From Marinobacter alexandrii (lineage in GTDB: Bacteria > Bacteroidota > Bacteroidia > Cytophagales > Cyclobacteriaceae): 64,000 nucleotides of DNA. The notes beneath the pieces were generated by a model. The model saw only the letters and a program-made list of their open reading frames with translations, did not search any database and had not been told where the DNA came from. Positions 1 to 58,777 of this stretch are shown here, piece after piece (the first letter of the stretch is position 1; each line of letters begins with the position of its first letter). The position numbers were made by a program, and so were the translations under genes. The stretch covers positions 1,806,501 to 1,870,500 of the forward strand of contig JBDWTN010000007.1 in NCBI GenBank assembly GCA_039984955.1, in the 5' to 3' direction.

Positions 1-2204
1 TCCATGAAACAGATTTACGTCTTTTTAGCGTGATGGGAAATTTCAAAAGCTCTGAAGGAATCAACACCTGGAATGGAATGCCTCCACCTCTGTCAAAGGC
101 TCTAAAAGAAGAATTCCCTGAAATCGATAAGGCAGTAAGTACCACTGATCCAAAGTGGCATATTGTTTTCAATCTTTCAACTGAAATTAAAAAATTGAAA
201 GCGGTAGGTAAATATGCATCAGAGGATTACTTCCATTTGTTTTCTTATGAGCTCCTCAAAGGAAATCAAAATCAAATCTTATCCGACCCAAATTCGATTA
301 CCATCTCAAGTCAATTAGCTAAGCGACTTTTTAAAACCGAGGATGATGCCATTGGAAAAACAATTGAATGGGCTACCCCTTCTCAGAACGGTGCTTCAAT
401 AATCACTGGTATTTTCAAAGCACCTCCTCGCAATTCTACAGATCAATTCGACTTCTTACTTCCTTTTGAGATTTATCAGAAAGAACAGCATGCTAATTGG
501 TACGCTCCAATCTCAGTCGCTTATGTCTTGCTAAAAAAAGAAGCAAACGTTCAGGCAGTGAATCAACGAATTTCCGATTTCATGCAATCTAAGGTAGCAG
601 ACTCCAAGATTAATTTGTTTTTAAAGCCTTATTCGGAAAGCTATCTCTATGGCAATTATGAAAATGGCGTCTTATCCGGTGGCAGAATACAGTATGTAAA
701 ACTCTTCTCAATCATTGCCTTATTCATTCTCATCATTGCCTGCATCAATTTTATGAACCTTTCTACGGCGAGAGCTTCAAGAAGAATAAAGGAGCTTGGA
801 GTAAAAAAAGCCTCTGGCGCCAGTCGTGGAAATCTAATTGTCCAGTACTTAAGTGAATCGATTTTAATGACTCTGGTTTCTTTGATTGTGGCAGGGCTTA
901 TTGTTTTCATTCTAATGCCTCAGTTCAATTCGATTACCGATAAGCAGCTTGTTGTTTCATTTGATTTTAATCTTATAATATCAGCGTTGATAGTCGCCTT
1001 AGCTGCCGGCTTAATTTCAGGAAGCTACCCTGCTTTCTATCTATCTGGATTCAATCCAATAATGGTTCTCAAGGGAAACTTCAAAAGCTCTGTTGGTGAG
1101 ACCTTGCTAAGGAAAGGGCTTGTGATTTTCCAGTTTTCTATTTCTATTATTTTAATAGTTTCCGTGATTGTGGTCTTAAAACAAATCGAGTTTGTTCAAA
1201 ATAAGAATCTCGGTTATAACAAAGAAAACGTACTGCTTTTTGAAAGTAATGGGAAGATTTCAGAAAGTTTTGACACGTTCATTAATGAAATGAAAAAAGT
1301 CCCGGGTGTAGAAAATGCTTCCGGAATGACCAACGGAATGTTTCTTGCTCCAGGTGGAGAACTTGAATGGAACGGTACAGAAACGAGTTCAAGTTTTAGT
1401 CGGTTCATCGTCCATTATGATTTTATAGAAACATTGGGGCTCACCGTAAAAGAAGGGCGCAGCTTTTCTAGAGAATACACGGGGGATGCTAATATCATGA
1501 TCAATGAATCAGCTGCAAGACTCATGAATCTGGAAGATCCAATCGGTGCAACTTTGAAATTTTGGGGAAATGACGTAAAGATCATTGGAATAGTAGAAGA
1601 TTTTCATTTTCAATCATTGCATGAAAATATAGGTCCGCTTTTCTTTCATCTGGCACCTACACAGTACCTATCGAGCATCGTGATACGACTTAAGCCAGGA
1701 GATCAACAATATGCCATCTCACAATTAGAGGATTTTTACAGTGAATTCAATCCCGGTTATGAACTAAACTATCGATTCCTGGAGAGTGAATATCAGTACC
1801 TCTATGAATCAGAAAACAAGGTAAGTGAACTTTCAAAATATTTTGCTGGCATAGCTATCCTGATCTCTTGTCTAGGTCTCTTTGGCCTAGCTTCCTTTAC
1901 TGCAGAAAAAAGGATAAAAGAAATTGGCATTCGGAAGATATTGGGATCAAGTGTCTTCCAAATTGTAAAAATGCTATCTGGGGATTTTACTCGAATGGTT
2001 CTAATCGCCATTATTATCGCCCTTCCAATCAGTTATTTTATCGCAAGGAACTGGCTTCAAGGTTTTGCATTCAGCATTGAGCTTGAATGGTGGTTTTTCA
2101 TAGGCGCTGGATCTGTGGCACTTCTAATTTCATGGATTACAGTTGGATATCAAACGCTTAAAGCTGCTAAGACCAACCCAGCTAATACATTGAAATATGA
2201 ATAA
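1..2204 (+). CDS. FtsX/MacB-type permease, 5' end outside window (block A, gene 1)
   Basis: The reading frame is open to the left edge (from base 3), and the first visible residues, HETDLRLFSVMGNF, align with the region about 55 residues after the prefix junction of the permease at 30018. Roughly 130 N-terminal residues, including any prefix and the first membrane helix, therefore lie upstream. A methionine at 33 is internal and is not the start. The visible part contains the end of the first periplasmic domain (YLYGNYENG), helices 2-4 with NFMNLSTARASRRIKELGVKK near base 745, helix 5 (VIFQFSISIILIVSV), the second periplasmic domain, and the terminal helices with CLGLFGLASF and KEIGIRKILG near 1870-1950. 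The GVKK signature and YLYGNYENG place it in body group I with 10072, 22215 and 30018. It overlaps the next gene by 8 bases. The family exports or senses substrates across the inner membrane; the substrate is unknown. Confidence 0.93.
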   Translation, partial: HETDLRLFSVMGNFKSSEGINTWNGMPPPLSKALKEEFPEIDKAVSTTDPKWHIVFNLSTEIKKLKAVGKYASEDYFHLFSYELLKGNQNQILSDPNSITISSQLAKRLFKTEDDAIGKTIEWATPSQNGASIITGIFKAPPRNSTDQFDFLLPFEIYQKEQHANWYAPISVAYVLLKKEANVQAVNQRISDFMQSKVADSKINLFLKPYSESYLYGNYENGVLSGGRIQYVKLFSIIALFILIIACINFMNLSTARASRRIKELGVKKASGASRGNLIVQYLSESILMTLVSLIVAGLIVFILMPQFNSITDKQLVVSFDFNLIISALIVALAAGLISGSYPAFYLSGFNPIMVLKGNFKSSVGETLLRKGLVIFQFSISIILIVSVIVVLKQIEFVQNKNLGYNKENVLLFESNGKISESFDTFINEMKKVPGVENASGMTNGMFLAPGGELEWNGTETSSSFSRFIVHYDFIETLGLTVKEGRSFSREYTGDANIMINESAARLMNLEDPIGATLKFWGNDVKIIGIVEDFHFQSLHENIGPLFFHLAPTQYLSSIVIRLKPGDQQYAISQLEDFYSEFNPGYELNYRFLESEYQYLYESENKVSELSKYFAGIAILISCLGLFGLASFTAEKRIKEIGIRKILGSSVFQIVKMLSGDFTRMVLIAIIIALPISYFIARNWLQGFAFSIELEWWFFIGAGSVALLISWITVGYQTLKAAKTNPANTLKYE

Positions 2205-4935
2205 GACACCTCCAAAATATCCCCTTCGCTTCTTTCGCTGGTTCTGTCATCCGGACTATGTGGAAGACATAGAAGGCGACCTATTAGAGCGATTTGAAAA
2301 AAGGACTAATGAAAAAAGGGCAGCCAAATGGCTGTTCACTATGGACGTGCTTAGGCTTTTCCGTCCAGGCATCATCCGAAATTTTGAAGGGGCTAAAAAA
2401 CTCAACTACTACGATATGTTTAAAAACAATTTAAAAATCGCTTGGAGAAATGCGATTCGCCAAAAACAATTTACTCTACTAAATGTACTTGGGCTCACCA
2501 TTGGTATAGCTACTAGTGTTGTGATAGGCCTCTATGTCTATGACGAAACCACGTATGATCAATTTCATGCAAATGGTGATCGCATCTACCGAGTCAATCA
2601 ACCAAATATCTGGTTAGATTGGACTGAGCAAATCTCCACCACCGGACCAAATGTAGCCACAGCATTGAGAGAGGAAGTCCCTGAGTTTGAACAAATAACA
2701 CGCGTGCTAAGTCTTGGCGCTCAAACGGTGAGCTCAGCCTCCAGAAACGTAAATGCAACCGTGTTTAAGGAATTGCAATTTTATGCCGCCGAGGAAAATT
2801 TCTTCGAAGTATTCTCATTTGAATTTCTTGAAGGAGATGCAAAAACTGCACTCAATGAGCCAATGAGCATGATCCTTACCTATGAAACTGCAAAAAAATA
2901 CTTCGGTGAAGATTACTCACCATCCGAAGCTATTGGCAAATCGATAGAAGTAAAAGACTGGGACAATTCCTGGGCAACTTATGTAGTCAGCGGAATTTTA
3001 GCGGACGTTCCAATCAAGTCACACCTACAATTTGATATGCTTGTCTCCCTCAGCAGCTTTCCTGAAATGATGCAGGCCCACGGTTGGAAATGGATTTGGA
3101 ATGCATTTGCTACCTATGGACTTGTCGTTGAGAACACTGACATTCCCTCACTCATTAGCAAACTTCAAGCAATCCCACCAAAATGGGCAGCACCTACCAC
3201 AGAGCGGATTTTCAATCAGACGGTCGAAGAATTTACCGGGGGTCTCCCATGGAGATTGGATCTTCAGCCCTTGAGCGAAATCTATGTATCTGGATCTCCT
3301 ACAAATTCCTTCGGCCCTACGGGCAATCCAGCATTCATTAAAATATTTGGTGCTATTGGATTACTTGTTCTCATCTTGTCTGTCATCAATTTCATGAACC
3401 TCTCAACTGCCAGATCTTCCAACCGTGCAAAAGAAGTTGGGGTAAGAAAAGTGCTGGGGTCGGAAAGAAAGGCCTTGTTGTATCAGTTCATTTTTGAATC
3501 TGTATTTTTTGCTTCAATAAGTACCTTATTGGCCATTTTAACCGTCTATTTTTCCCTTGATGCATTCAATGCACTGGCCGACAAAAACATTGAATTAACA
3601 GGGCATTTGAATAATCCATTTTTCTATGGGATTATTATTGGATTTGTGCTGATCATCGGAATTTTTGCAGGAAGTTATCCCGCCTTCTATCTCTCTTCAT
3701 TCAAACCTATAGAAACGTTAAAAGGAAAAATCAGTGCAGGATTCAAGGGTAAAGGAATTAGAAATGGACTGGTTATTTTCCAGTTTACCATTTCAATTGC
3801 ACTGATCGTATGTACATTTTTCGTGCAGAAACAATTGGCTTATGCTTCTTCCATGGATGTGGGATTTGCAAAAGATAACGTCCTACAAATACACAACATC
3901 GAACAAATGGGGTTTGATACAGAAAAGCTGAAAGCACGATTGGAAACAAATCCTGCTTTTACGAAAGTAGGAAAATCCTTTGGGCTTCCTCCTCGGGTAT
4001 CTTCAGGAGACAGGTACAAGACTCCAGGTGCTGAAAGTGAAGTGTTCCAATTGAGAAACCTCCGTACTGAAGAAGACTATCTTGATCTGCTCGGCTTGGA
4101 ATTTCTTGCAGGTAGAAATTTCGATCCATCCCGTCCAAATGACAAATACAAGGTGGTTCTCAATGCTGAAGCAATTCGCCTATTAGGTTGGGGATCGGTG
4201 GAATCTTTTGCCAGTGATTCCCTTGTCGGCAAAAAACTAGCTCTTGCATCAGGAGACGAAGATGAGTTTGAGGTCATCGGAGTAGTGAAAGACTTCAATT
4301 TTAACAGTGTGAAACAGGAAATTCTACCTCTGGTGATTATCCATCATTTGAATGATAAAGTATGGGATTATGGCAGAGGTCTATCTTATTATTCCATGAG
4401 GATGAATCCTGAAAAAATTAGAAATGGTGAGGATCTTGACCTGCTCATTGAAAATGTGCGAGATGAACTGACACAGGTGGATCCATCAGTCCCTTTTGAG
4501 TACAGTTTCATGGATCAGGATTTTGAAAATACATTCCGTTCTGAGCAACGTATGGGCCAGATATTAAACCTCTTCACCTTCATGGCTCTGGTTATTGCTT
4601 GCTTGGGCTTATTTGGACTTGCTGCTTTCTCAGCAGAACAGCGGACAAAAGAACTGGGAATAAGAAAAGTATTGGGTGCCAGAGTTTCTGAGCTTGTCAT
4701 TACATTTTCCACAGAATTTACCAAACTCATCCTGATTGCCATTCTTATTGCTTCACCTATTGCTTACTTTCTTGTAGATAGCTGGTTGGGAAATTTCGCT
4801 TATAGAACACCAATTGATCTTTGGGTTTTTGCGGTAGCGACAATGGCTGCATTAGTGATAGCGATAGTAACCATTAGCTTTCAATCGCTTAAGGTAGCAA
4901 ACAAAAATCCTGCAGAGACACTAACGAATGAATAG
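2197..4935 (+). CDS. Prefix-domain FtsX/MacB-type permease (block A, gene 2)
   Basis: At 912 residues this is the longest permease in the window. The cytoplasmic prefix (about residues 1-73) has FFRWFCHPDYVEDIEGDL and a short insert (RTNEKRAAK) that the other block A prefixes lack. Met74 begins the permease body proper, and the first membrane helix follows at about 95-115. The first periplasmic domain is followed by NFMNLSTARSSNRAKEVG (about residue 398), GSYPAFYLSSFKPIETLKG, helix 5, an enlarged second periplasmic domain, then CLGLFGLAAF and KELGIRKVLGA (about 802-828). Both KE(V/L)G(V/I)RKVLG segments correspond to the cytoplasmic coupling segment that touches the ATPase in MacB and LolCDE, so coupling to an ATPase is probably retained. 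Its body resembles those at 16189 and 59583 rather than its immediate neighbours. The start codon lies inside the preceding stop region. Confidence 0.95.
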   Translation: MNKTPPKYPLRFFRWFCHPDYVEDIEGDLLERFEKRTNEKRAAKWLFTMDVLRLFRPGIIRNFEGAKKLNYYDMFKNNLKIAWRNAIRQKQFTLLNVLGLTIGIATSVVIGLYVYDETTYDQFHANGDRIYRVNQPNIWLDWTEQISTTGPNVATALREEVPEFEQITRVLSLGAQTVSSASRNVNATVFKELQFYAAEENFFEVFSFEFLEGDAKTALNEPMSMILTYETAKKYFGEDYSPSEAIGKSIEVKDWDNSWATYVVSGILADVPIKSHLQFDMLVSLSSFPEMMQAHGWKWIWNAFATYGLVVENTDIPSLISKLQAIPPKWAAPTTERIFNQTVEEFTGGLPWRLDLQPLSEIYVSGSPTNSFGPTGNPAFIKIFGAIGLLVLILSVINFMNLSTARSSNRAKEVGVRKVLGSERKALLYQFIFESVFFASISTLLAILTVYFSLDAFNALADKNIELTGHLNNPFFYGIIIGFVLIIGIFAGSYPAFYLSSFKPIETLKGKISAGFKGKGIRNGLVIFQFTISIALIVCTFFVQKQLAYASSMDVGFAKDNVLQIHNIEQMGFDTEKLKARLETNPAFTKVGKSFGLPPRVSSGDRYKTPGAESEVFQLRNLRTEEDYLDLLGLEFLAGRNFDPSRPNDKYKVVLNAEAIRLLGWGSVESFASDSLVGKKLALASGDEDEFEVIGVVKDFNFNSVKQEILPLVIIHHLNDKVWDYGRGLSYYSMRMNPEKIRNGEDLDLLIENVRDELTQVDPSVPFEYSFMDQDFENTFRSEQRMGQILNLFTFMALVIACLGLFGLAAFSAEQRTKELGIRKVLGARVSELVITFSTEFTKLILIAILIASPIAYFLVDSWLGNFAYRTPIDLWVFAVATMAALVIAIVTISFQSLKVANKNPAETLTNE

Positions 4936-7504
4936 AACGCCTCCTAAATATCCCTTGCGATTCTTCCGCTGGTTCTGCGATCCAGACTATGTGGAAGATA
5001 TTGAAGGTGATCTTTTGGAACGTTTTGAAAAACGACCTTCTACACTTCGATTCGGAATTGAGGTGTTAAAACTCTTTCGGCCAGGCATCATTCGAAAATT
5101 AGAAGGAACTAGAAAACTCAATTACTACGATATGCTAAAACATGATTTAAAAATCGCCTTTAGAAATCTGAAAAGACAAAAAAGTATTTCATTTATCAAT
5201 ATTAGTGGCTTGGTTTTAGGCTTGCTAGTCACGCTCATGATTGGGCTGTGGGTGGAAGACGAATTGTCATGGGATAAAGACAATGAAAACTATGACCGAG
5301 TAGTTAGGGTCATGCAAAAAAGAGTCTTCAATGAAGATCTTGCAGTAACACGTGCAGTGCCTCATCCACTAGCAACAACGCTTAGCAAAACGTACGATGA
5401 TGTTTTTGATCATGTCGTGCTCTCTTCTTTTTATTATGATGTTCTCATAACCCAAGGAGAAGATGCAGTAAACATGACTGGAGTTCTTATGCAATCAGCA
5501 GCACCTCATGTAATGTCGCTCGAAATGATTAGCGGATCCAGAAATGGGCTCAAAGAAGAAGCGGCTATACTTCTTTCGAAAAGCTCCGCCCTTGCGCTTT
5601 TTGGGGATAGTGATCCGATGAATCAAATGGTAAATATGAATGATTTAGGCATGATTGTCCGTGGCGTATATGAAGATATACCACGTACTAGTCGTTTCAA
5701 CGGAATAGGTTTCATAGCATCTTTGGATTTTTATCTGACAAATAATGACTGGATGAGAGAAAAAGCAGAACAAGCTGATTGGGATTCCAACATATATCAA
5801 ATATTTGCTACGACCGCTGAGAATGTCGCAATTGAGACCACTAATGAAAAAATACAAACCCTGATTAATGATCATTTACCAGATGGCAAAAAAAATGAAA
5901 AAAATACGGTGTTTCTACATCCAATGAAAGACTGGCACCTAAAATCTTCATGGAATAATGGTGTTCAATCAGGGGGTGGTATCCAATATGTTCGCTGGTT
6001 CAGCTTGATAGGTTTGCTGGTATTGTTTCTAGCCTGTATCAATTTCATGAATTTAAGTACTGCACAATCTATCCGAAGAGCCAAAGAAGTGGGAATAAGA
6101 AAATCACTTGGATCTGTTCGCAATCAGCTGGTTGCTCAGTTTATGACTGAGTCTACGCTATTGGTATTCCTCTCATTCTTAGTCGTGACTGGAATCTCCT
6201 ATCTCATTACTCCTTATTTTAATCACCTAACTGATAAGCAAATAAGCGTTCCGTTAGACACCTGGCAATACTGGGGTTATGGATTAGGTACTGTATTAGT
6301 TGTGGGTATTTTATCAGGCAGCTATCCTGCCCTTTACCTTTCTTCGTTCAGGCCCATTCACGTATTAAAAGGAACTTATCAGAGTCATTTATCCGCTAGC
6401 ATTTTTAGAAAAGCCATGGTTGTTTTTCAGTTTACCATTTCCATCGCTCTGATCATTGGAACCATGGTCATTACACGGCAGATCGAACATGCAGTTAACA
6501 GACCGTTAGGATATGATGGTGAAGGCACTATTTCGATTGCGGGGAACTCTACTAAGCTTCTTGAAGATGAGCTCATGCGATCAGGAGCAATTGTTCACCT
6601 TGCAGAATCTTCTAACCCACTTACTGAGACCTGGATGATGAACAATGACTTTTCCTGGGTAGGCAAGGATCCTACCTATACACCTATGGTTAATACCATC
6701 TATGTTACTCATGATTTTGGGAAGACGATCAACTGGGAAACTGTAGAAGGAAGAGATTTTGATCAGGCTTTTTCTTCGGATTCAAGTGCGGTGATACTCA
6801 ATGAAACGGCCGCTCGAACCATGGGTATAGAAAACCCAGTTGGGATGGATATTAAGTGGCAAGGAAACACCTACAAAGTCATTGGTATGGTGAAAGATCT
6901 TCTCCTTGACTCTCCTTTTAAAAACAATAAACCTACCTTTTATTTTTTTATCCTAGAACATTTTAGAAGCTTTACTCTGATAAGACTAAATGATCAGCTT
7001 GCAAAAGTAGAAGCGATCAATAGGGTAGCTGAAGTCTATGAAAAAGTACATCCCAATGTTCCTTTTGAGTTTGAATTTATACGTGACGAACATGAACGTA
7101 AGTTTCGATCCATTAACAGAATAAGTTCACTCTCTGGTATTTTCTCCTCATTTGCTATCATTATCAGCTGCCTTGGGCTTTTTGGTTTGGCTTCTTTCCT
7201 GGTAGAACAGCGGACCAAGGAGATCGGTATACGGAAAGTACTGGGAGCATCCGTACTTACCCTATGGCGATTAGTGTCAAAAGAGTTTGTTTTGCTAGTT
7301 CTCCTATCTAGTCTTATTGCTATTCCAATTTCCATTATTGCTCTGGGCAACTGGCTGGAAAGCTACGAGTACCGAATTGGGTTGGAATGGTGGGTTTTTG
7401 TATTAGCAGCTATGGGTGCTTTGGTATTGACTATCACAACAGTAAGTCTTAAATCTGTTGGGGTTGCTAAACTCAATCCGGCAAAGACACTAAAGGATGA
7501 ATAA
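4928..7504 (+). CDS. Prefix-domain FtsX/MacB-type permease (block A, gene 3; body group II)
   Basis: 858 residues. The prefix (1-68) reads FFRWFCDPDYVEDIEGDLLE, and Met69 marks the junction to the body. Membrane helix 1 is about residues 87-107. The first periplasmic domain ends in HPMKDWHLKSSWNNG followed by a GG-IQYVRWFS segment, shared only with 7497 and 27413 (group II). NFMNLSTAQSIRRAKEVG lies near residue 370 and CLGLFGLASFLVEQRTKEIG near 748. The C-terminus NPAKTLKDE is coded so that its last codons and stop supply the next start (ATGAATAA). The first 110 nucleotides differ at about 11 positions from those of the next gene, far closer than the bodies. The start ATG sits in the previous stop overlap (ATGAATAG), which supports coupled translation. 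Confidence 0.95.
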   Translation: MNRTPPKYPLRFFRWFCDPDYVEDIEGDLLERFEKRPSTLRFGIEVLKLFRPGIIRKLEGTRKLNYYDMLKHDLKIAFRNLKRQKSISFINISGLVLGLLVTLMIGLWVEDELSWDKDNENYDRVVRVMQKRVFNEDLAVTRAVPHPLATTLSKTYDDVFDHVVLSSFYYDVLITQGEDAVNMTGVLMQSAAPHVMSLEMISGSRNGLKEEAAILLSKSSALALFGDSDPMNQMVNMNDLGMIVRGVYEDIPRTSRFNGIGFIASLDFYLTNNDWMREKAEQADWDSNIYQIFATTAENVAIETTNEKIQTLINDHLPDGKKNEKNTVFLHPMKDWHLKSSWNNGVQSGGGIQYVRWFSLIGLLVLFLACINFMNLSTAQSIRRAKEVGIRKSLGSVRNQLVAQFMTESTLLVFLSFLVVTGISYLITPYFNHLTDKQISVPLDTWQYWGYGLGTVLVVGILSGSYPALYLSSFRPIHVLKGTYQSHLSASIFRKAMVVFQFTISIALIIGTMVITRQIEHAVNRPLGYDGEGTISIAGNSTKLLEDELMRSGAIVHLAESSNPLTETWMMNNDFSWVGKDPTYTPMVNTIYVTHDFGKTINWETVEGRDFDQAFSSDSSAVILNETAARTMGIENPVGMDIKWQGNTYKVIGMVKDLLLDSPFKNNKPTFYFFILEHFRSFTLIRLNDQLAKVEAINRVAEVYEKVHPNVPFEFEFIRDEHERKFRSINRISSLSGIFSSFAIIISCLGLFGLASFLVEQRTKEIGIRKVLGASVLTLWRLVSKEFVLLVLLSSLIAIPISIIALGNWLESYEYRIGLEWWVFVLAAMGALVLTITTVSLKSVGVAKLNPAKTLKDE

Positions 7505-10079
7505 AACACCTCCTAAATATCCCTTACGATTCTTCCGCTGGTTCTGCCACCCAGACTATGTGGAAGATATTGAAGGTGATCTGCTGGAGCGATTCGAAAA
7601 AAGACCATCAAGATGGCTTTTTACGCTCGACGTATTAAGACTGTTTCGGCCCGAAATAATTAAACCTGTCAGTGGAATGCAAAAACTCAACAATTACGGT
7701 ATGCTAAAGCATCACCTTAAAATCAGTTATAGGAATCTACTCAGAAGAAAATCATTCACACTAATAAATATTGGTGGACTTGTAATGGGTTTGACTATTA
7801 CCATTCTCATTAGTCTTTGGATAAACTATGAGTTTTCGTTTGATCGACAAAACGATCATTATAATCGTATAGCTCGAGTCATGTTACATCAAAGCGTCAA
7901 TGAAGAAGTACAGACAAAAGGCACTATCCCTTTTCCGCTCTCCATTGAACTGGAAAAACAATATGCTGATGATTTTGAACATGTTGTACTATCAACTTGG
8001 TCAGGTGATTTTACCTTATCGAGCAATGAGGTAGAGGTCACTACTCGCGGTGCATTTATGGGTGAAAGTGCCCCGAATCTCATGTCTTTAAATATGTTAT
8101 ATGGAAATCGAAATAGCCTATCAGAAGCAAGTAGTGCATTGATCTCAGCGTCTACCGCTAAGTCCTTATTCGGTGGTGAAGATCCTATCGGAAAAACCAT
8201 CACTACTCATCAAAATTGGAGCATGACCGTAACAGGAATTTTTGAAGATATTCCTTCAAATAGTCGCTTTCATCGAATCAATTTTATTGGTAGTTGGAGT
8301 GTTTATGAAGCTTCGATTCAATGGATCAACAAAATGAGTTGGAATGGTGCTTCTTTTCACTTGTTTGTACAATTAAGAGAAGGAGTAAATATGGATGTCG
8401 TCAGTGAGAAAATATCTCCTATAGTTCAGGACCATTTAACTCCCGAAAGGAAGCAGTACAATACAAAAATATTTCTTCACCCTATGAAAGACTGGCATTT
8501 GAGATCAAATTGGAAAAATGGAATAAGGACAGGAGGTGAAATCCAGTATATCTGGTGGTTTGGGATCATTGGTGGTTTTGTACTGCTTTTGGCTTGTGTC
8601 AACTACATGAATCTAAGCACTGCTCAGTCCATCAAGAGAGCTAAAGAAGTAGGAATTCGAAAATCTATAGGAACTAATCGTGTACAACTAATTACCCAAT
8701 TTCTAACTGAATCCGTATTCATTGTATTTATTGCCTTCCTCATTGCTTCTCTAGCAACTTTTTTCGCATTGCCTTACTTCAATTTATTGACAAGTAAAGA
8801 TATTATCATGCCATTAAGCTCACCTTACTTTTGGGCGTTTGGGCTAGGATTCGCTGTACTTGTGGGCCTTCTATCCGGCAGTTATCCTGCACTTTACCTG
8901 TCATCTTTCAATGCTACTCAAGTATTAAAGGGAACTTACCAAAACACGCTTTCAGCTGTTTTATTTAGGAAATTTCTAGTGGTTTTTCAATTCACAATTG
9001 CGATGATTTTAATCATCGGAACGCTTATTATAGCCCAGCAAATCAATTATGCGGGTAAAAGACTACTTGGTTATAATCAAAGTGGCATCATCTCGATTCA
9101 AATGAAGACTGGAGATCACTGGAACAAGAATGAAGTAATTAAAAATGAGTTATTGTCTTCAGGGTTGATTTCCCACTTCACGCAAACATCAGCCTCGCTA
9201 ACTGAAGTGTGGACTGAATATGGTGATATTAGCTGGAAAGGCAAAGATCCCAATTTTCAATCTTGGTTTTGTGCATTCTTTGTCAATCATAATTATGGAG
9301 AAACAATTAGTTGGAAAATTATTGATGGTAGAGACTTTTCTACAGAAATGAGCAGCGATTCCTCAACCATAATCATTAATGAAGCTGCTGCTAACTATAT
9401 GCAATTAAATGACCCAGTAGGCAAAATCGTCAAATGGAATAAAAATTTCAAAATTATTGGTGTAGTTAAAAATCTATTAGTGGAGAGTCCATTTAGCGAA
9501 GTGAGGCCTACTGTGTACGTAGTTAATCGAGGCGACATGGCAAATCATCAATTATTAAAACTCAATCCTAAGGTTCCTACACTTAAAGCAATTGAGGGCA
9601 TTGAAGATATTTATAAGCAACATGTATCAAAAGTGCCTTTCACATTTGAGTTCGTAAGTGATGTTCATGAAGAAAAATTTAAATCAATCAATCGAATTGG
9701 GATGCTATCTACAGTTTTCGCTGTATTGGCCATATTTATAAGTGGCCTTGGCTTGTTTGGGCTGGCAGCTTATATAGTGGAACAACGAACAAAGGAAATA
9801 GGCATTAGAAAGGTATTAGGAGCATCAATTTTTAGTTTATGGAAGCTCCTGTCTAGCGAGTTTGTATTACTTGTGCTAATCGCCTGCTTTATTGCACTAC
9901 CATTCGCTTATTACTTTCTAAGTGACTGGCTTGAAGATTATGAGTATCGAATTCAAATTCAGGAATGGTTATTAGTAGCCTCTTGTTTAGGAGCACTTTT
10001 CATCACCTTACTCACCGTAAGTGCTAAATCAGTCAAAGCAGCATTTGCAAATCCGGTAGAGTCACTGAGAAATGAATAA
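7497..10079 (+). CDS. Prefix-domain FtsX/MacB-type permease (block A, gene 4; body group II)
   Basis: 860 residues, with prefix (1-68) FFRWFCHPDYVEDIEGDLLE and junction Met69. It is a close relative of the preceding gene in both prefix and body, including HPMKDWHLRSNWKNG and the STAQSIKRAKEVGIRKS segment at about 370, so a local duplication is likely. Final helices carry GLGLFGLAAYIVEQRTKEIG near residue 749; the Cys that most paralogues have before LGLFGL is replaced by Gly. The C-terminus is NPVESLRNE. Its stop overlaps the following start by 8 bases. Eight membrane helices (1+3+1+3) with two periplasmic domains are expected from the hydrophobic pattern. The substrate cannot be read from sequence. 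Confidence 0.95.
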   Translation: MNKTPPKYPLRFFRWFCHPDYVEDIEGDLLERFEKRPSRWLFTLDVLRLFRPEIIKPVSGMQKLNNYGMLKHHLKISYRNLLRRKSFTLINIGGLVMGLTITILISLWINYEFSFDRQNDHYNRIARVMLHQSVNEEVQTKGTIPFPLSIELEKQYADDFEHVVLSTWSGDFTLSSNEVEVTTRGAFMGESAPNLMSLNMLYGNRNSLSEASSALISASTAKSLFGGEDPIGKTITTHQNWSMTVTGIFEDIPSNSRFHRINFIGSWSVYEASIQWINKMSWNGASFHLFVQLREGVNMDVVSEKISPIVQDHLTPERKQYNTKIFLHPMKDWHLRSNWKNGIRTGGEIQYIWWFGIIGGFVLLLACVNYMNLSTAQSIKRAKEVGIRKSIGTNRVQLITQFLTESVFIVFIAFLIASLATFFALPYFNLLTSKDIIMPLSSPYFWAFGLGFAVLVGLLSGSYPALYLSSFNATQVLKGTYQNTLSAVLFRKFLVVFQFTIAMILIIGTLIIAQQINYAGKRLLGYNQSGIISIQMKTGDHWNKNEVIKNELLSSGLISHFTQTSASLTEVWTEYGDISWKGKDPNFQSWFCAFFVNHNYGETISWKIIDGRDFSTEMSSDSSTIIINEAAANYMQLNDPVGKIVKWNKNFKIIGVVKNLLVESPFSEVRPTVYVVNRGDMANHQLLKLNPKVPTLKAIEGIEDIYKQHVSKVPFTFEFVSDVHEEKFKSINRIGMLSTVFAVLAIFISGLGLFGLAAYIVEQRTKEIGIRKVLGASIFSLWKLLSSEFVLLVLIACFIALPFAYYFLSDWLEDYEYRIQIQEWLLVASCLGALFITLLTVSAKSVKAAFANPVESLRNE

Positions 10080-16184: not shown

Positions 16185-16188
16185 CGCA

Positions 16189-18627: not shown

Positions 18628-18628
18628 A

Positions 18629-47807: not shown

Positions 47808-47820
47808 ATTTTAAATTAAA

Positions 47821-49581: not shown

Positions 49582-49616
49582 CAAAATATATTTAGGTAGT
49601 ACCGCTTTAGCGGGGG

Positions 49617-49646: not shown

Positions 49647-49727
49647 TTTTATATCAAAGCCGTACTCAGGCCTTTTTACAATAGAACTGCCTGCCTCTCA
49701 ATAGGCAGAAAAAGAGTCTTCATTTCT

Positions 49728-49794: not shown

Positions 49795-49805
49795 ATTCAA
49801 TAATA

Positions 49806-50144: not shown

Positions 50145-50146
50145 AA

Positions 50147-50899: not shown

Positions 50900-53507
50900 G
50901 CAATTACCTCTCATATCGAAAAAATTCTTCCTCTGGTACTGCATTCCGCGGCTTCAGGAAACTATTATGGGTGACTTGGAGGAGCAGTTCGAAGAAGATT
51001 TACAAAAGAAAGGTCCAGCTATGGCTAAGGCTAGATTCACCTGGAATGTGATTCGTTTTTTTAGACCCGGTATTATTAAGCCACTTGGTGGTATCACAAA
51101 ACTCAATTATTACGGCATGATCAAAAATGATTTTAAAGCAGCATTCAGAGTAATTAAGAGAGAAAGACTCTACAGTGGCATTAACATATTAGGACTTACA
51201 TCAGGATTTGTAATCGCTTTGTTGATTCTTTTCTACGTTCGTTTCGAGCAGAGTTATGAGGATTACAATCCGAACTCCGATAAGATAGTACGTATTACCA
51301 TGGACTACCTTGATGGTGAAACTCTCATTGATCAGGATTGTGAAACCTATCATAATCTCGGGCCAATGATCAAAGATGAGTTTCCAGAGGTTGAAGATTA
51401 CACAAGAGCTTTCGGTTTTGACGTATTAATGGAAATAGATGAACGATTTTTTCGCGAGTCGAAGGTATATGCTGTTGACGCGAGCTTCCTTTCCATATTT
51501 GGGTATCCTCTCCTCTATGGAGAACCCAAAACAGCACTAAAAGAACCCAACCAAGTTGTTCTAACAGAATCTACCGCATTAAAATACTTCGGGACTACCA
51601 ATGCGATAGGTAAAACCATTACCATGGATGAAAATACACTAACTAAAGTAGTTGGTGTAATAGCTGACAATCCGACAAACACGCATCTGAAATTCAACTT
51701 GGTTTTCTCATACAGCACTATGAAAAAAATGCTGAGTGAGCGTGAAGATATATGGAATAGCAACGACACATTCACCTACTTAAAACTTAGTAATTCGGAT
51801 AATTATCCAAGATTTAAAGAGAATCTTGCCACACTTTCCGATCAATTAAGAGCAGAGGATCATATACCGGATGAAAGAATCATTTCGCAAAAGATAGAAG
51901 ACATTCACCTTTATTCTCACAAGTCCTATGAGGCCGAGCAGAATGGAAGTTCCACACTTGTTATTTTCTTATTTGGAGTAGCCCTCTTAGTTATCCTAAT
52001 TGCCATTGTCAATTACATCAATCTATCTACCGTTAAATCAATGGATCGAGCAAAAGAGGTAGGTATTCGAAAAGTGGTAGGCTCCTCCGTAGCTCAATTA
52101 AGAATGCGATTCTTTCTGGAATCTATCATCATCAATTTAATTGCAGGATTGGCTTCTATTATGCTAATACTTGTCGTTTTTGATAGCTTTAAAACACTTG
52201 CAAACCTTCCAGAATCCACACAAATAATAAACGATTGGTCCACGTGGAAGCTGCTTGGGCTGCTATTTATACTGAGTACAGTGCTATCAGGAATATTTCC
52301 TTCATTGATACTCAGTTCACTGTCACCAACATCTGTTTTAAAAGGCAAGTTTTCCCATTCCTCCTCAGGTATTATTTTAAGAAAAGGATTGGTTATAGTA
52401 CAATTTTCAATAGCCACTTTCCTTCTCATCCAAACCTTTACAGCAAGTAAGCAGCTAAGCTTTATGATGAACAAGGACTTGGGCTTTGATGCAAACCAGG
52501 TAGTTGTCATGAATGGTCCTTCAATGGAAGAAAATAGGCAAGACTATATCTCCTTTAAGAACTCTCTGCTGGAAAGATCAGCATTTCAAAAAATAGGACT
52601 TTCTTCCACTGTCCCAGGTATGGCGACAGGAAATATGGGAAGCACAACGAATCTTAATCTGGACGAAGATGAGAGAGATCTTAAAAATAATTTTTACATC
52701 TATCATGTTGACTCTAGCTTTTTTGAGACTATGGGAATGGAAATAATTGAAGGAGAAAACTTTTCGAATAGTGTGAATTTTCAATACCCTATTCTGATCA
52801 ATGAAGAAGCACTAAGAGAGTGGGGTATATCTGATCCAAAGGATGTCATTCATAAAAAAATGACTTATTGGGGGAGAGAGAACACCATTATAGGAGTGGT
52901 GAGAGATTTTCATCAAATAGATGCAAAGTCAGGACACCTAGCTATGGCATTTAATTACTCTCTCAGTAGCGCAGATTACATAAGCGTGAAACTGGGACCT
53001 GGGAATGTTTTTGAACAAATTGAAGACTTAGAAGAGATTTATAAAAGCCACTTTGGGCATGATCCATTTGATCCTTTTTTCCTCGATCAGAATTTTGATG
53101 CTCAATACCGCGCAGATCAACAATTTCAACAAGTATTCGGAATATTAAGCGTTTTTGCAATCCTAATCACATGCTTAGGCCTTTTTGGTCTCGCTTCTTT
53201 TACTGTAGCCAAAAGAGCTAAAGAAATTGGCATTCGGAAAGTATTGGGAGCTAATGTGTCCCAACTCATTACACTTTTATCAAAAGATTTTGTGGCGCTG
53301 GTTTTAACCTCATCGATCATTGCCCTACCCATTACTTATTTTCTTGTAAAAAACTGGTTGGAGCAATACACATTTAGGATTGATCTCAGTTTTTGGCTAT
53401 TTGCCGGACCCACACTTTTCATCTTAGTAATCGCATTCTTTACTGTTTTTTCAAAAACCTTTCATGTATCGAATGCCAACCCTGTGAATTCCTTGAAAGA
53501 TGAATAA
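50892..53507 (+). CDS. Prefix-domain FtsX/MacB-type permease (block D, gene 1)
   Basis: 871 residues. The block D prefix (1-75) reads FFLWYCIPRLQETIMGDLEEQFEEDL with junction Met76. The body is not clearly a member of the four groups; it has NYINLSTVKSMDRAKEVGIRKVVGS (about 370) and ends its first half with FPSLILSSLSPTSVLKG, where the usual GSYPA is GIFPS. The second half has CLGLFGLASFTVAKRAKEIGIRKVLGA (about 760). It ends NPVNSLKDE, with an 8-bp overlap to the next gene. Its start overlaps the HExxH gene stop. Confidence 0.95.
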   Translation: MNKQLPLISKKFFLWYCIPRLQETIMGDLEEQFEEDLQKKGPAMAKARFTWNVIRFFRPGIIKPLGGITKLNYYGMIKNDFKAAFRVIKRERLYSGINILGLTSGFVIALLILFYVRFEQSYEDYNPNSDKIVRITMDYLDGETLIDQDCETYHNLGPMIKDEFPEVEDYTRAFGFDVLMEIDERFFRESKVYAVDASFLSIFGYPLLYGEPKTALKEPNQVVLTESTALKYFGTTNAIGKTITMDENTLTKVVGVIADNPTNTHLKFNLVFSYSTMKKMLSEREDIWNSNDTFTYLKLSNSDNYPRFKENLATLSDQLRAEDHIPDERIISQKIEDIHLYSHKSYEAEQNGSSTLVIFLFGVALLVILIAIVNYINLSTVKSMDRAKEVGIRKVVGSSVAQLRMRFFLESIIINLIAGLASIMLILVVFDSFKTLANLPESTQIINDWSTWKLLGLLFILSTVLSGIFPSLILSSLSPTSVLKGKFSHSSSGIILRKGLVIVQFSIATFLLIQTFTASKQLSFMMNKDLGFDANQVVVMNGPSMEENRQDYISFKNSLLERSAFQKIGLSSTVPGMATGNMGSTTNLNLDEDERDLKNNFYIYHVDSSFFETMGMEIIEGENFSNSVNFQYPILINEEALREWGISDPKDVIHKKMTYWGRENTIIGVVRDFHQIDAKSGHLAMAFNYSLSSADYISVKLGPGNVFEQIEDLEEIYKSHFGHDPFDPFFLDQNFDAQYRADQQFQQVFGILSVFAILITCLGLFGLASFTVAKRAKEIGIRKVLGANVSQLITLLSKDFVALVLTSSIIALPITYFLVKNWLEQYTFRIDLSFWLFAGPTLFILVIAFFTVFSKTFHVSNANPVNSLKDE

Positions 53508-56124
53508 GCCCTATCCTCCATCGATTGCAAGGAGATTCTTCCAATGGTATTGTAACCCACGATTACAGGAAACTATACTAGGTGATTTGGAAGAGCAATT
53601 TGAGGAAGACCTCAAAGCATCTGGTCCTCGAAGAGCTAAAGCAAGATTTACTTGGAATGTCTTACGATTCTTTAGACCTGGTATCATTAAATCATTTAAT
53701 AATGGTCAAAAATTAAACACCTACGGCATGTACAAACATTACCTCAAAATAGGATGGAGAACGATTCTTCGAAACAAACTCCATTCGTTCATCAATGTAA
53801 TAGGGCTCTCTACTGGAGCAGCCATATGCTTAGTGACGTTGCTTTTTTACAACTACGAAACATCTTTTGATCATCATCATGCAAATGCTGATCAAACCTA
53901 TCGTGTTGTACAGCACACTCACAAATCTGATCAAGAGCTTTATTGGAACACCACGGCCTATCCGTTAGCTGCGGCATTGAGAAACGATTTTCCTGATTTT
54001 GAACATGTGACTCAGGTAGCTGGTCCTATGAAAAGGCTTTTCAAACTAGAATCGGAGAAAACTGAGGTCGTACGTTTTGAAGAAGAACATGTATTATTTG
54101 CTGATCGTCATTACCCTGAAGTCTTCGATCTTGAATGGATTTCTGGTAGCAAAGAATCTGCATTAGATCTACTCAATTCGGTCGTGATTACTGAAAAAAT
54201 TGCCGAAAAGTGTTTCGGTCAAAATTTTAGATCTTCCAGGGTAGTCGGACAAACACTGTTGCTAAACAATAAAGATGCTTTAATCATCACTGGTGTAGTA
54301 AAAAATCCTCCACCCACAACGAGCTTAAAATTTAACATGCTCATCTCCTATGAATTTTTCAAAAAACATAACCCGTATCCTAGCGGTAACTGGTCAGGCA
54401 ATTATCAAGGTACCACATTCGTCACATTGAAAGACCAAAGTCAAGAATTACTAGTAGAAGATAAAATCAATAATTGGAAAGGCAATTACTTAAATGAGGT
54501 CGATAATGAGCAGATCTCGTACTTTCTGCAGCCTCTCAAAGAGATACACACTGAAACCCTTTACGGAAGTGTTCCAACGGGTTATCAAATAGATAAAAAA
54601 ACATTGAACATTTCTATCATGGTAGCTTTGTTCATCTTATTTATTGCAGTAGTCAATTTCATTAATCTAGTAACCGCCAGAGCGTCTATCAGATCTAAAG
54701 AGGTAGGAATCAGAAAAGCAATTGGAAGTAGTCGAGGCTCTCTTATTAAGCAGTTCCTTTTTGAAAACAGTATACTCGTAATTATCGCGATGATTGTAGC
54801 TTGTGTACTATCCTGGCAGCTGTTAGTGCTTCTGAATAATTCGCTTTCTATTATCGGCATGAAATTATCATTTCATCTCCAGGAAGTCGTACTGATTATT
54901 GGAGCATGTTTTCTCATAATCGTTTTATCGACTGTTTATCCTGCGTTTGTCCTTTCATCATTCAAACCGATAAAAGCCCTCAACAATAGTGGCGCAGGAG
55001 GAATAAAAGGATTTTCCTTCAGAAAAGGACTCACTTTGTTTCAGTTCACACTCGTTCAGATTTTTGTAATTTCTGCTTTGATTGTTGGTATTCAAATCAA
55101 TTATTTCAATAGTAAGTCGCCCGGTTTCACTTCCGATCAAATCGTGATGATTCCCATTCCAAGTCATGATAAAATCGATGTGATCGCAAATCGATTTTTA
55201 GAAAACAACCAGGTTAGTCAAGTGTCCTTTGGATCAGGTCCTCCCATGGCAGTAAATAATTTTGCATTGGGCACCAATTGCTGGCTTCCTCATCAGGAAA
55301 AATTAGATGCTATTAGCACTCAAATGAAAATTGCAGACCCAGCATATATTCAATTATACGATCTGGAATTAGTTGCCGGAAGGAATTTCATAGAGAATAA
55401 ACCTCAATTTGATGAATTTATCATCAATGAAAAGCTAGCCAAGTCATTCGGATGGAAAAATCCAGAAGATGCTTTGGGACAATCATTACGAATTAATGAA
55501 GGCGAAGCTAAAGTTGTTGGTGTGATCAAAGATTTCCACAACCAGCCATTTCAATATGAATTGACTCCTGTCGTACTGATGAACTGGACAGCTTGGCAAT
55601 GGCGAGCTTTTGCTAAAATTAATTCGTTTGATGCCTTAATCCACATAGAGGAGACATGGAAATCACAATTTCCAGAGTCAATCTTCACTTACAACTTTTT
55701 AGATGACTCAATCAAAAAAGAATATCTGTTAGAAAATCTCATATATAGAGGCTTCAAGCTTTTTTCCATGCTTGTAATCATCATAGGGTGCTTAGGTCTA
55801 CTTGGATTGATGTCTTTCATCACACTCCAAAAAACCAAAGAGATTGGTGTGAGAAAAGTACTAGGTGCTAGTGTCGTTCAGATTATTAGCAATCTATCAA
55901 AGGAATTCTCAATAATCATTTTTATCGGATTCATTGTAGCTGTACCAGTCGTCTACTATTTCATGGGGATATGGTTGAATAATTTTTCCTATCGCATTGA
56001 ATTATCTCTGTGGATATTTATCGCAGGCGGCTTGATCACCTTTCTATTCGGAATAGGTATTTCATCACTCAAGTCTGTCAAAGCTGCAAGAGCCAATCCA
56101 ATAGAATCATTAAAGTATGAATAA
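53500..56124 (+). CDS. Prefix-domain FtsX/MacB-type permease (block D, gene 2)
   Basis: 874 residues; prefix FFQWYCNPRLQETILGDLEE (1-76), junction Met77. The body is divergent: NFINLVTARASIRSKEVGIRKAIGS (about 383), STVYPAFVLSSFKPIKALN with STV in place of SGS, and a helix 5 of LTLFQFTLVQIFVISAL. The second half has CLGLLGLMSFITLQKTKEIGVRKVLGA (about 763). The C-terminus is NPIESLKYE. Start and stop both lie in 8-bp ATGAATAA overlaps with neighbours. Confidence 0.95.
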   Translation: MNKPYPPSIARRFFQWYCNPRLQETILGDLEEQFEEDLKASGPRRAKARFTWNVLRFFRPGIIKSFNNGQKLNTYGMYKHYLKIGWRTILRNKLHSFINVIGLSTGAAICLVTLLFYNYETSFDHHHANADQTYRVVQHTHKSDQELYWNTTAYPLAAALRNDFPDFEHVTQVAGPMKRLFKLESEKTEVVRFEEEHVLFADRHYPEVFDLEWISGSKESALDLLNSVVITEKIAEKCFGQNFRSSRVVGQTLLLNNKDALIITGVVKNPPPTTSLKFNMLISYEFFKKHNPYPSGNWSGNYQGTTFVTLKDQSQELLVEDKINNWKGNYLNEVDNEQISYFLQPLKEIHTETLYGSVPTGYQIDKKTLNISIMVALFILFIAVVNFINLVTARASIRSKEVGIRKAIGSSRGSLIKQFLFENSILVIIAMIVACVLSWQLLVLLNNSLSIIGMKLSFHLQEVVLIIGACFLIIVLSTVYPAFVLSSFKPIKALNNSGAGGIKGFSFRKGLTLFQFTLVQIFVISALIVGIQINYFNSKSPGFTSDQIVMIPIPSHDKIDVIANRFLENNQVSQVSFGSGPPMAVNNFALGTNCWLPHQEKLDAISTQMKIADPAYIQLYDLELVAGRNFIENKPQFDEFIINEKLAKSFGWKNPEDALGQSLRINEGEAKVVGVIKDFHNQPFQYELTPVVLMNWTAWQWRAFAKINSFDALIHIEETWKSQFPESIFTYNFLDDSIKKEYLLENLIYRGFKLFSMLVIIIGCLGLLGLMSFITLQKTKEIGVRKVLGASVVQIISNLSKEFSIIIFIGFIVAVPVVYYFMGIWLNNFSYRIELSLWIFIAGGLITFLFGIGISSLKSVKAARANPIESLKYE

Positions 56125-58777
56125 AAATACTCCTCCATCGATCCCTCGTAAATTCTTTCTATGGTATTGCAAAGAGCGATTTCAAGAATCTATTATGGGC
56201 GACTTGGAGGAACAATTTGAAGAAGATCTAGAGAACCATGGACTAATAAAAGCCAGGCGAAAGTTCGTTTGGAATGTTCTTAGATTTTTCAGACCTGGAA
56301 TTATTAAAGCTGCCTTTGGCGGTCAAAAACTCAACACTTACGGTATGTTTAAAAATTATTTCAAAGTAGGGATCAGAAATATCCTGAAGTACAAAATGTT
56401 CTCATTTATCAACGTCTTTGGGTTGGCAGTAGCCATGTCTGTATGCATGTTGATCATTCTCATGCTTTATGATCAAAAAAGCTATGATCAATTTCATGAA
56501 AAGAAAGATCAGGTACACAGAATACTCGGAAAACCTGAAAAAGGGAGCATGCCATATGCCACTATTCCATTGCCACTTTCAAAAACACTAAAAGAAGATT
56601 ATCCAATTATAGAAGAGGCTATAGCGCTTAGAAGAGGTGTAGGGGGTGACGCATCTTTCAATCAAAAAACCGTGGAAATGAAAGGTTATTTCGCGCCAAG
56701 TTCATTTTTCAACATTTTTAGTTTCCCATTAGTAAAAGGAGATCAATCCACAGCACTAGATGAGCCCAATTCGCTAATTATAACCAAGGAAAAAGCTTAC
56801 CAGTTATTCAATAGTGAGAATCCAATAGGCAAGCAAGTCACTTTTGAGGATCGAGGATTACATATCATGGATATTGAAGATGGAAGAAGTCCAGTTGATT
56901 GGGGTTCATATACGGTTACTGGAGTAATCGATCTATCTTCTTACAAGACTCATCTAAAGTTTGATGCTTTAGTTTCATCCGCAACATTACCCGCTCTATA
57001 TAAGGATAGCTTATTGGCAGATGTATCAGAAAAATGGGAAACATACTATACGGCATACTCTTTCATTTCGCTAAAAGAAGGAACACAAAGAGCCGAGTTA
57101 GATATCGCTCTTGCCGATCTTGCACAAAGGAAATATGCAGATTCAGAGAACTACCCTGACTTCACATTCATTTCTCAAAGTCTCTCAAAAATTACTCCTG
57201 GCATACTAGTAAATAATGAAGCTACATTTAGATTGCCAGAGGTAGCCTATTACATTCTATCGCTACTCGCACTGGTCATTATGATAATGGCTTGTTTGAA
57301 TTATACCAATCTTTCAATAGCTCGTTCACTATCCAGAATGAAAGAAATTGGTGTGAGAAAGGTGACTGGTGCTACTCGTAAAAATCTAATATTTCAATTT
57401 CTTACAGAATCAATCATTACAGTGATGATAGCGTTAATCATTGCTACAGGCATGCTCTATTTCACCAAAGAAGCTTTTATGGGACTTTGGTTCAATAAAT
57501 ACCTCAATTTTGATTTGTCTTCTTCGCTTCCAGTTTATTTGATCTTTGTGGTTTTCGCGTTTTTAATTGGAATTATTGCAGGAACATATCCAGCACTTCT
57601 TCTTTCCAAAAGACAGCCAATACATGCATTGAAGACAAACGCTACTCCCGCTGGTAAATGGGGAATGCAAAAGATTCTTAATGTTTCTCAGTTTGTCGTA
57701 TCACTTATTTTTATTGTGACTTCTATGGTCATTTACAATCAATTCAAATTCTATACAGAGTTTGAATATGGCTTCCAGTCCGAAAACATTGTAAACATTC
57801 CTCTTCAAGGAAATGATCATGAAATGCTAACAAATGAGCTATCATCAGTGGCAGGTGTTACTACTATTTCTGCGTGCGATTATGTACCTGCCACAGGCGT
57901 CACCAATATTACAGAGTTCACATCTCCTGAAGAAGGGGCTGATCCATTTGTCCTCCTCAAATTGAATGTAGATGAGGATTTTATGAAAAATCTAGAACTG
58001 GAATTGCTCGCTGGAAAAGGTATTTCTAGCACTGATAATTCTGGGAAGTATGTCGTAATAAATGAGTCTGCAGTAGAAAAACTAGGCTATGAAAATCCGC
58101 AAGAGGCCGTTGGCAACATATGGGATAGAGAGTCTGGTGGTTCAGTGCAGATAGTTGGAGTTGTAAAGAACTTCCGCGCATCACTTCTTGTCAATGGTAC
58201 TGAAATTAGACCTCTTGCATTGGCGAATGATGCGTCTACTTTCAATTACTTAAATGTAAGAATTTCGGAGGGCAGTCCTCTTGGGACAATTGCTGACATT
58301 GAGCAAGTCTGGAAGAAAATAGATCCCGTCCATGAATTCAAATATGAGTTTTTTGACAATGAGCTATCCAATACAAATCTTGCCATTTTCGATATCGTAT
58401 CGATTATTGGTTACATCTCCTTTTTGGCAATCCTCATTGCTTGTTTAGGAATGCTTGGAATGGCTACCTATTCAACCGAGAGGCGAATGAAAGAAGTAGG
58501 AATAAGAAAAGTGCTTGGTGCCGCCGAGATGAGAATCATCCTGATTTTATCCAAAAGCTTTCTTAAGTTGTTAGCCATTTCCATCCTAATTGCGGCCCCA
58601 CTGAGTTACTTTATCAATCAGTTTTGGCTGGACAATCTTCCAAATCGGATGGACTTTGGATTCGGTACAGTCGTCATTGGTTCACTCCTCATGTTGGGGC
58701 TTGGTTTGCTCACTATTGGTTCACAAACTATTCGTGCTGCAAGACAAAACCCTGTAGAATCATTGAAGGATGAGTAA
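56117..58777 (+). CDS. Prefix-domain FtsX/MacB-type permease (block D, last gene; body group IV)
   Basis: 886 residues. The prefix (1-76) is of the block D type (FFLWYCKERFQESIMGDLEEQFEEDL), but the body from Met77 is nearly the same kind as 34467 of block C: YFKVGIRNILKYKMFSFINVFGL, NYTNLSIARSLSRMKEIGVRKVTGA (about 393), YGFQSENIVNIPLQGND. DNA identity between the two is very high from just before the junction onward and is absent in the prefixes. The second half has CLGMLGMATYSTERRMKEVGIRKVLGA (about 775). It ends NPVESLKDE with ATGAGTAA and no further overlapping permease. Confidence 0.95.
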   Translation: MNKNTPPSIPRKFFLWYCKERFQESIMGDLEEQFEEDLENHGLIKARRKFVWNVLRFFRPGIIKAAFGGQKLNTYGMFKNYFKVGIRNILKYKMFSFINVFGLAVAMSVCMLIILMLYDQKSYDQFHEKKDQVHRILGKPEKGSMPYATIPLPLSKTLKEDYPIIEEAIALRRGVGGDASFNQKTVEMKGYFAPSSFFNIFSFPLVKGDQSTALDEPNSLIITKEKAYQLFNSENPIGKQVTFEDRGLHIMDIEDGRSPVDWGSYTVTGVIDLSSYKTHLKFDALVSSATLPALYKDSLLADVSEKWETYYTAYSFISLKEGTQRAELDIALADLAQRKYADSENYPDFTFISQSLSKITPGILVNNEATFRLPEVAYYILSLLALVIMIMACLNYTNLSIARSLSRMKEIGVRKVTGATRKNLIFQFLTESIITVMIALIIATGMLYFTKEAFMGLWFNKYLNFDLSSSLPVYLIFVVFAFLIGIIAGTYPALLLSKRQPIHALKTNATPAGKWGMQKILNVSQFVVSLIFIVTSMVIYNQFKFYTEFEYGFQSENIVNIPLQGNDHEMLTNELSSVAGVTTISACDYVPATGVTNITEFTSPEEGADPFVLLKLNVDEDFMKNLELELLAGKGISSTDNSGKYVVINESAVEKLGYENPQEAVGNIWDRESGGSVQIVGVVKNFRASLLVNGTEIRPLALANDASTFNYLNVRISEGSPLGTIADIEQVWKKIDPVHEFKYEFFDNELSNTNLAIFDIVSIIGYISFLAILIACLGMLGMATYSTERRMKEVGIRKVLGAAEMRIILILSKSFLKLLAISILIAAPLSYFINQFWLDNLPNRMDFGFGTVVIGSLLMLGLGLLTIGSQTIRAARQNPVESLKDE

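Follow-up and report, generated by a model that had tools for sequence, protein, structure and literature searches.

The 64,000-nucleotide stretch of Marinobacter alexandrii DNA analysed here, referred to below as the window, raises the question of why neighbouring permease genes share an N-terminal prefix that goes with the operon, while the permease bodies behind it are distributed across operons. The window holds 15 prefixed permease genes and one body whose prefix lies just upstream (16 genes altogether), and the source genome (4.88 Mb, 8 contigs) encodes 53 prefixed genes spread over 41 operons, as determined by a profile search. In these operons, a PadR regulator usually precedes 1 to 6 double-length MacB/FtsX-type permeases, which are 851-912 residues long in the window blocks, where neighbouring genes overlap by 8 nt. 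Copy number varies widely among congeners, from 26 to 77 prefixed genes in seven, with none in two smaller genomes. A first-pass annotation of the window had sorted the bodies into groups I-IV and had offered two mechanisms for the pattern, namely gene conversion of the 5' ends and swapping of bodies behind a fixed prefix. The relevant features, in window coordinates, are as follows.

1-2204, + strand: block A gene 1, of which the window contains the body alone (group I); the A-type prefix of this gene is found about 150-350 bases before the window start
2197-2415, + strand: A prefix of gene 2; body 2416-4935
4928-5131, + strand: A prefix of gene 3; body 5132-7504, group II
7497-7700, + strand: A prefix of gene 4; body 7701-10079, group II
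10072-10275, + strand: A prefix of gene 5; body 10276-12636, group I
19291-19644, + strand: PadR regulator at the head of block B
19637-19858, + strand: B prefix 1; body 19859-22222, group III
22215-22439, + strand: B prefix 2; body 22440-24818, group I
24811-25035, + strand: B prefix 3; body 25036-27420, group III
27413-27637, + strand: B prefix 4; body 27638-30025, group II (full-length model, pLDDT 88.8)
30018-30242, + strand: B prefix 5; body 30243-32612, group I
34125-34463, + strand: PadR regulator at the head of single-gene operon C
34467-34697, + strand: C prefix; body 34698-37145, group IV
49749-50144, + strand: PadR regulator upstream of block D, with ORF 50102-50899 intervening
50892-51116, + strand: D prefix 1; body 51117-53507
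53500-53727, + strand: D prefix 2; body 53728-56124
56117-56344, + strand: D prefix 3; body 56345-58777, group IV
59242-59580, + strand: PadR regulator at the head of single-gene operon E
59583-59816, + strand: E prefix; body 59817-62228
62356-62685, + strand: PadR regulator at the head of operon F
62685-62912, + strand: F prefix; the body runs beyond the window end

Two duplicated permeases without a prefix (12708-15113 and 16156-18627) are located between blocks A and B. Their N-termini look like the body starts of the prefixed genes, and no PadR gene was found directly upstream of either. The ORF that separates the first block D permease from its upstream PadR encodes 265 residues and overlaps that permease.

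Judging from profile scores, the prefix is the named domain NF038404, perm_prefix_2: 15 of the 16 genes scored above the curated cut-off of 35 bits (44.5-69.1 bits), and the prefix of the F gene scored 22.9 bits, under the cut-off. It is predicted to form a cytoplasmic three-helix unit of ~70 residues, joined to the permease body by a flexible linker. In the full-length model of gene 27413 (pLDDT 88.8, pTM 0.82), the prefix comprises helices 7-16, 19-40 and 42-55, followed by a linker at about residues 59-72 (pLDDT 62-71), after which the body starts. The nearest solved folds to this model are E. coli YbbAP and MacB; the ABC permeases YbbP and MacB work with an ATPase. Folded alone, the prefix gave a poor model (pLDDT 71, pTM 0.43), for which no PDB fold match was found at E ≤ 0.001 (best E 3.3). 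Likewise, no Pfam match was found for 3 prefixes at E ≤ 10, and no PDB sequence match for the prefix at E ≤ 10. Relatives lacking a prefix align from about query residue 60-70 onward, which fits a prefix that was added ahead of an older start.

As for the bodies, FtsX matched in two stretches in all 6 complete permeases scanned, and MacB_PCD did so in 5 of these 6, the unprefixed gene 12708 having one MacB_PCD stretch. The four complete prefixed permeases scanned contained two MacB_PCD and two FtsX stretches apiece, and the gene cut by the window end contained one of each. No ABC ATPase match was found within 3 kb of the gene start for any of the 53 prefixed genes of this genome, and for one of the 53 within 6 kb.

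The block-wise prefix motifs described by the first-pass annotation (FFRWFC-PDY-EDIEGDL in block A, FFRWFCH-LQKPIEGDL in block B and FF-WYC-QE-I-GDLEEQFEEDL in block D) were confirmed, as were their coordinates. Prefixes are 71-81% identical among themselves in block A, 73-84% in block B and 64-69% in block D. The bodies within these blocks are 27-48% identical, and bodies of one operon show 43-56% nucleotide identity. Bodies of the same group from different operons are 36-48% identical, and their prefixes 37-57%. Two pairwise counts from the annotation proved exact: there are 14 differences in the first 107 nt between genes 22215 and 27413, whose bodies belong to groups I and II, respectively, and 11 in 110 nt between genes 4928 and 7497. 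Body groups II, III and IV were recovered as proposed; group I, in contrast, held only after the addition of one unlinked permease, C5_31667m, located elsewhere in the genome.

Trees of prefixes and bodies were inferred for the 53 prefixed genes of this genome. The prefix tree, with its small number of columns and a bootstrap that had not settled, showed each of blocks A, B and D as one clade (support 95/88, 99/98 and 98/97, respectively). The body data rejected these same blocks as clades (p-AU 7e-51, 5e-52 and 3e-8). The body tree, the product of a quick search in which long branches meet, recovered groups II (support 79), III (100) and IV (100); for the four named group I genes alone as a clade, the body data gave a p-AU of 0.017. 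With the prefix data, a clade was rejected for body group I (p 4e-4) and body group II (1e-4) but not for group III (p 0.17) or group IV (0.054), although group III is confined to block B and thus tells little about exchange between operons. A single-breakpoint scan of the 16 genes peaked at column +1 from the prefix/body junction (dAICc 701). Forcing the prefix data (75 columns) onto the body topology cost 291 lnL and forcing the body data onto the prefix topology cost 1106 lnL, compared with 23 and 39 lnL for a control in which body halves were placed on each other's topology. The separate phylogenies and breakpoint test suggested with the first-pass annotation thus returned trees that are incongruent both ways and a breakpoint at the junction, and not congruent prefix and body trees. 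Prefix and body have separate histories, and the linker, near the point at which unprefixed relatives start, marks the switch between them.

An operon-matched prefix on an exchangeable body is the general pattern among the relatives examined, those with names including Cyclobacteriaceae, Ekhidna, Roseivirga and Algoriphagus. Pairs were compared among 259 of 272 prefixed genes in 159 operons, yielding 171 within-operon pairs from 54 multi-gene operons. The 13 genes left out were shorter than 500 aa, had unknown residues near the start or were duplicates, and pairs with fewer than 30 aligned prefix codons or fewer than 300 aligned body codons were excluded. Six named loci repeating contigs of other sampled genomes were skipped, and the 72 named loci found through prefix/linker patterns are biased to that prefix type. 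Mean identity within operons was 0.70 for the prefix and 0.34 for the body, the prefix being the higher in 170 of the 171 pairs; between operons (33,240 pairs), the respective values were 0.375 and 0.319. Within-operon mean prefix identity remained at 0.65-0.77 in every body-identity bin. At 45% body identity, 33 of 36 multi-member body clusters included more than one prefix type, and 28 of 35 prefix types occurred in more than one body cluster; when the threshold was 60%, 16 of 41 body clusters still included more than one prefix type. Of the 54 multi-gene operons, 39 were uniform in prefix type (58% threshold) and 2 were uniform in body cluster. The comparison was repeated in three whole genomes, covering 53 of 53, 35 of 36 and 27 of 28 prefix matches (the two genes not covered are short open frames). 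Prefix identity exceeded 99% of between-operon pairs in 24/25, 6/6 and 32/32 within-operon pairs, whereas bodies did so in 4/25, 0/6 and 1/32. As a control for rate, 57 gene pairs with PadR identity of at least 0.75 and body identity of at least 0.6 were compared, and gave 0.70 for the prefix and 0.74 for the body. Since the prefix evolves about as fast as the body, a body of 34% identity should carry a similarly diverged prefix. Prefix identity is indeed near body identity between operons, but not within them.

Within blocks of the window, 21 of 23 prefix pairs had a dS that was above 1 or not computable, indicating that copying there was not recent, and purely recent conversion inside the window was ruled out on this basis. 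Many within-operon prefix pairs have saturated silent sites, as is mostly the case in the window (pS 0.47-0.91). Prefix copying between neighbours, as envisaged by the first of the two mechanisms offered, was seen in relatives. Neighbouring genes g1 and g2 of locus L046 (relative G034) share 139 nt of uninterrupted prefix identity with a prefix pS of 0.13, and their bodies are 32-35% identical. Four more such pairs have identical prefix runs of 92, 86, 82 and 35 nt. Some of the clearest cases come from metagenome-assembled genomes, in which misassembly is possible; conversion-like pairs in named isolates are those of Algoriphagus sp. A40 (the 86 nt run) and A. iocasae (35 nt). In 22 listed within-operon pairs, prefix pS was 0.13-0.39 vs 0.72-0.85 for the body. 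Identity in converted pairs rises past the start codon and drops at the junction, and it is likewise reduced ahead of the start. At the 3' end of the gene the effect was small, the last 12 residues being 0.556 identical within operons vs 0.483 between operons. In block A, a net deletion of 5 residues provides a further marker: it is present in 4 of the 42 A-type prefixes listed, each of them one of the five of this block, and the four prefixes bearing it sit on group I and group II bodies, relatives of which lie behind A-type prefixes without the deletion elsewhere. The signature of gene conversion, that is, a bounded tract of unusual likeness in paralogues of one operon combined with incongruent trees, was accordingly found. 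These sequence comparisons show that prefixes are homogenised within operons, at least sometimes through recombination that copies the ~200-nt prefix between neighbours. In Roseivirga spongicola (L093:6840 onward), two adjoining prefixed genes have an odd, near-identical N-terminal extension ahead of the prefix, as if one repeat had entered both genes.

The second mechanism, in which bodies are swapped behind a fixed prefix, was likewise borne out by relocated bodies in relatives. The body of gene 2197 stands behind an A prefix and an A-type PadR in this genome; its relative in Ekhidna lutea (66% identical) stands behind a B prefix and a B-type PadR, and its relative in genome G003 (70% identical) behind an F prefix and an F-type PadR. 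The prefixes attached to these three bodies are 21-45% identical. Similarly, an A-type gene of Ekhidna lutea carries a body 82% identical to the body of gene 59583, which has an E prefix; between these two genes, prefix identity is 49% and PadR identity 50%. Altogether, 135 between-operon pairs combined a body identity of at least 0.55 with a prefix identity of 0.50 or less. Pairs from Algoriphagus (body 0.90-0.91, prefix 0.58-0.61, PadR 0.62-0.66) are mild cases of exchange, their prefixes belonging to one cluster at the 58% threshold. The nucleotide similarity of exchanged bodies begins around the prefix/body junction. Among four pairs inspected for a 3' limit at the stop codon, this limit was clear for E. 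lutea vs 59583 and for A. iocasae vs A. terrigena; similarity sinks already ahead of the stop codon for G003 vs 2197, and it continues into the next gene for A. iocasae vs Algoriphagus A40, where a 3' limit is absent. Alignments of this kind show that bodies relocate behind other prefixes.

The sole constant neighbour found for the prefixed permeases is PadR. A PF03551 PadR match heads 39 of the 41 operons of this genome, or 40 of 41 with a purpose-built PadR profile, and 39 of its 42 PadR matches head a prefixed operon. Of these matches 41 of 42 exceed the PF03551 cut-off; the PadR at 19291-19644, for example, scored 45.7 bits against a Pfam gathering score of 27. At C7:2297839-2302900, the top-scoring Pfam PadR of this genome (G000) is followed by permease frames of 887 and 894 residues, which have no perm_prefix_2 match and may have a prefix of a different type. 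The prefix is co-inherited with PadR; the bodies, for the most part, are not. Across 140 operons with a PadR of at least 90 residues, PadR distance correlated with prefix distance at r = 0.73 and with body distance at 0.26. In 50 multi-gene operons, the last gene, which can be several kilobases away from PadR, gave values of 0.81 and 0.13. Between PadR identities of 30-40% and 90-100%, the prefix rose from 0.31 to 0.70 in identity, and the body from 0.30 to 0.42. The correlations between genomes largely reflect operon orthology. Inside single genomes, the Spearman correlation of PadR with the prefix of the first gene was 0.10, 0.11 and 0.32 (75, 73 and 41 of 1000 permutations as high), and that with the prefix of the last gene was 0.08, 0.13 and 0.28 (136, 45 and 64 of 1000); in the third genome, PadR tracked the body of the last gene (0.36, 24 of 1000) better than its prefix. 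In this genome, the Pearson correlation between PadR and prefix was 0.22, and the partial correlation 0.23, with 0 of 2000 permutations as high. The link between PadR and prefix is one of co-inheritance, for which within-genome support as independent co-evolution is weak.

We regard it as very probable that recombination shaped these genes through both prefix conversion and body exchange. Homologous recombination would take place mainly in the prefix, the best-conserved stretch remaining, because the bodies of one operon are too diverged. The prefixes would be kept matched because an operon's permeases use them to contact a common partner, of which the cognate PadR is the most likely. One regulator might then be served by exchangeable permeases that act as its membrane sensors or that sequester it. 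That the prefix docks the cognate PadR is a tentative proposal. We advance with slightly more reserve the idea that the prefix could constitute an operon-specific docking code for its PadR repressor, the operon being a rack of interchangeable membrane receptors that feed one regulator. The combination of a recombining prefix and body with a putative PadR docking function is nonetheless likely to be the best explanation as a whole. An account without recombination, in which whole genes were recently duplicated in tandem, bodies diverged quickly and the prefix evolved slowly, would explain the tandem arrangement and the 8-nt overlaps in the window blocks. However, other species and operons contain relatives of the different-group bodies that share one operon, the silent sites of the bodies are saturated, the prefix evolves as fast as the body among orthologues, and the topology tests contradict a shared history of prefix and body. 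Recent duplication with slow prefix evolution is refuted by the topology and rate tests, and we consider an explanation of this type extremely improbable.

A serious rival is neutral homogenisation, by which tandem prefixes convert simply as the sole well-conserved homologous stretch and PadR tracks the prefix because the two share an operon, with no need for functional matching. Mean prefix identity does fall with gene separation, from 0.717 for 100 neighbouring pairs to 0.628 for 6 pairs four genes apart; moreover, tract ends coincide with the loss of homology, and PadR-prefix correlations within genomes are weak. Against this, at saturated silent sites (pS of at least 0.8) prefixes share 0.63 of their residues within operons vs 0.37 between operons, a likeness that leans towards constraint. 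In addition, only 4 of 171 within-operon prefix pairs fall below 0.5 identity, such that mismatched intermediates are scarce even though bodies move; both observations are compatible with neutrality. On balance we judge neutral homogenisation to be possible, if somewhat doubtful. The prefix could alternatively be matched to a partner other than PadR, either in permease hetero-oligomers of one operon or in a shared ATPase or cytoplasmic partner. Such matching would agree with the sharing of one prefix type by several permeases of an operon and with a body fold that resembles the ABC permeases YbbP and MacB, and no ATPase gene is nearby, making a trans-acting partner plausible. We nevertheless think it unlikely, as a within-operon pairing tag would be useless in the 36 of 41 operons of this genome that have a single prefixed permease, and PadR is carried by 40/41, 29/30 and 12/12 operons in the three whole genomes.

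Under the proposed docking of PadR, the findings suggest that the prefix may be a plug connecting permeases to the regulator of their operon. If the docking code is true, recombination at the linker would plug new specificities behind the resident prefix, and the plugs would stay matched through gene conversion. A testable role is thereby offered for the prefix domain and for a permease family annotated as orphan. The pattern predicts a binding partner for the prefix and hints at how genomes accumulate dozens of such operons; it also provides a clean natural system in which to measure gene conversion tracts between bacterial paralogues.

The component families and the process are already known. 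The arrangement was not found in our searches of the open-licence literature, and the co-inheritance of PadR and prefix is new here. Searches of that literature returned no stated function for the permease prefix domain, and nothing on TIGR03434 or on PadR combined with FtsX-like, MacB or orphan permeases or with gene conversion. The NCBIfam entry NF038404 (permease prefix domain 2-containing transporter) describes the same domain as the prefix here; compared by name alone, the entry does not include operon-wise matching, conversion or the PadR link. The ADOP family (TIGR03434, duplicated orphan permease) and its PadR (TIGR03433) both gave matches. The resemblance lies in a double-length MacB/FtsX permease, an adjoining PadR and the lack of a nearby ATPase; the duplicated MacB_PCD/FtsX architecture without an adjacent ATPase, a feature that we infer from the model name, was found in our permeases. 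In contrast, scores here are well under the cut-offs, with 8 of 8 permeases scanned missing the 622 bits of TIGR03434 (115-270 bits) and the one PadR scanned reaching 33.6 bits against TIGR03433 (cut-off 101.8). A taxonomic paper on Dyadobacter mentions many ADOP copies (PMC11573002). Concerted evolution by gene conversion, of which mammalian CEACAM and TLR1/TLR6 are given as examples, likewise homogenises one part of a gene among neighbours as the rest diverges; the paralogues described here differ in being bacterial, in being homogenised operon by operon and in having the homogenised domain co-inherited with a regulator. TonB-dependent transducers have an N-terminal signalling domain that is matched to an anti-sigma factor. 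While no homology is claimed and PadR is another kind of regulator, the prefixed permeases would work like these transducers, with an N-terminal matching domain placed ahead of an exchangeable membrane body.
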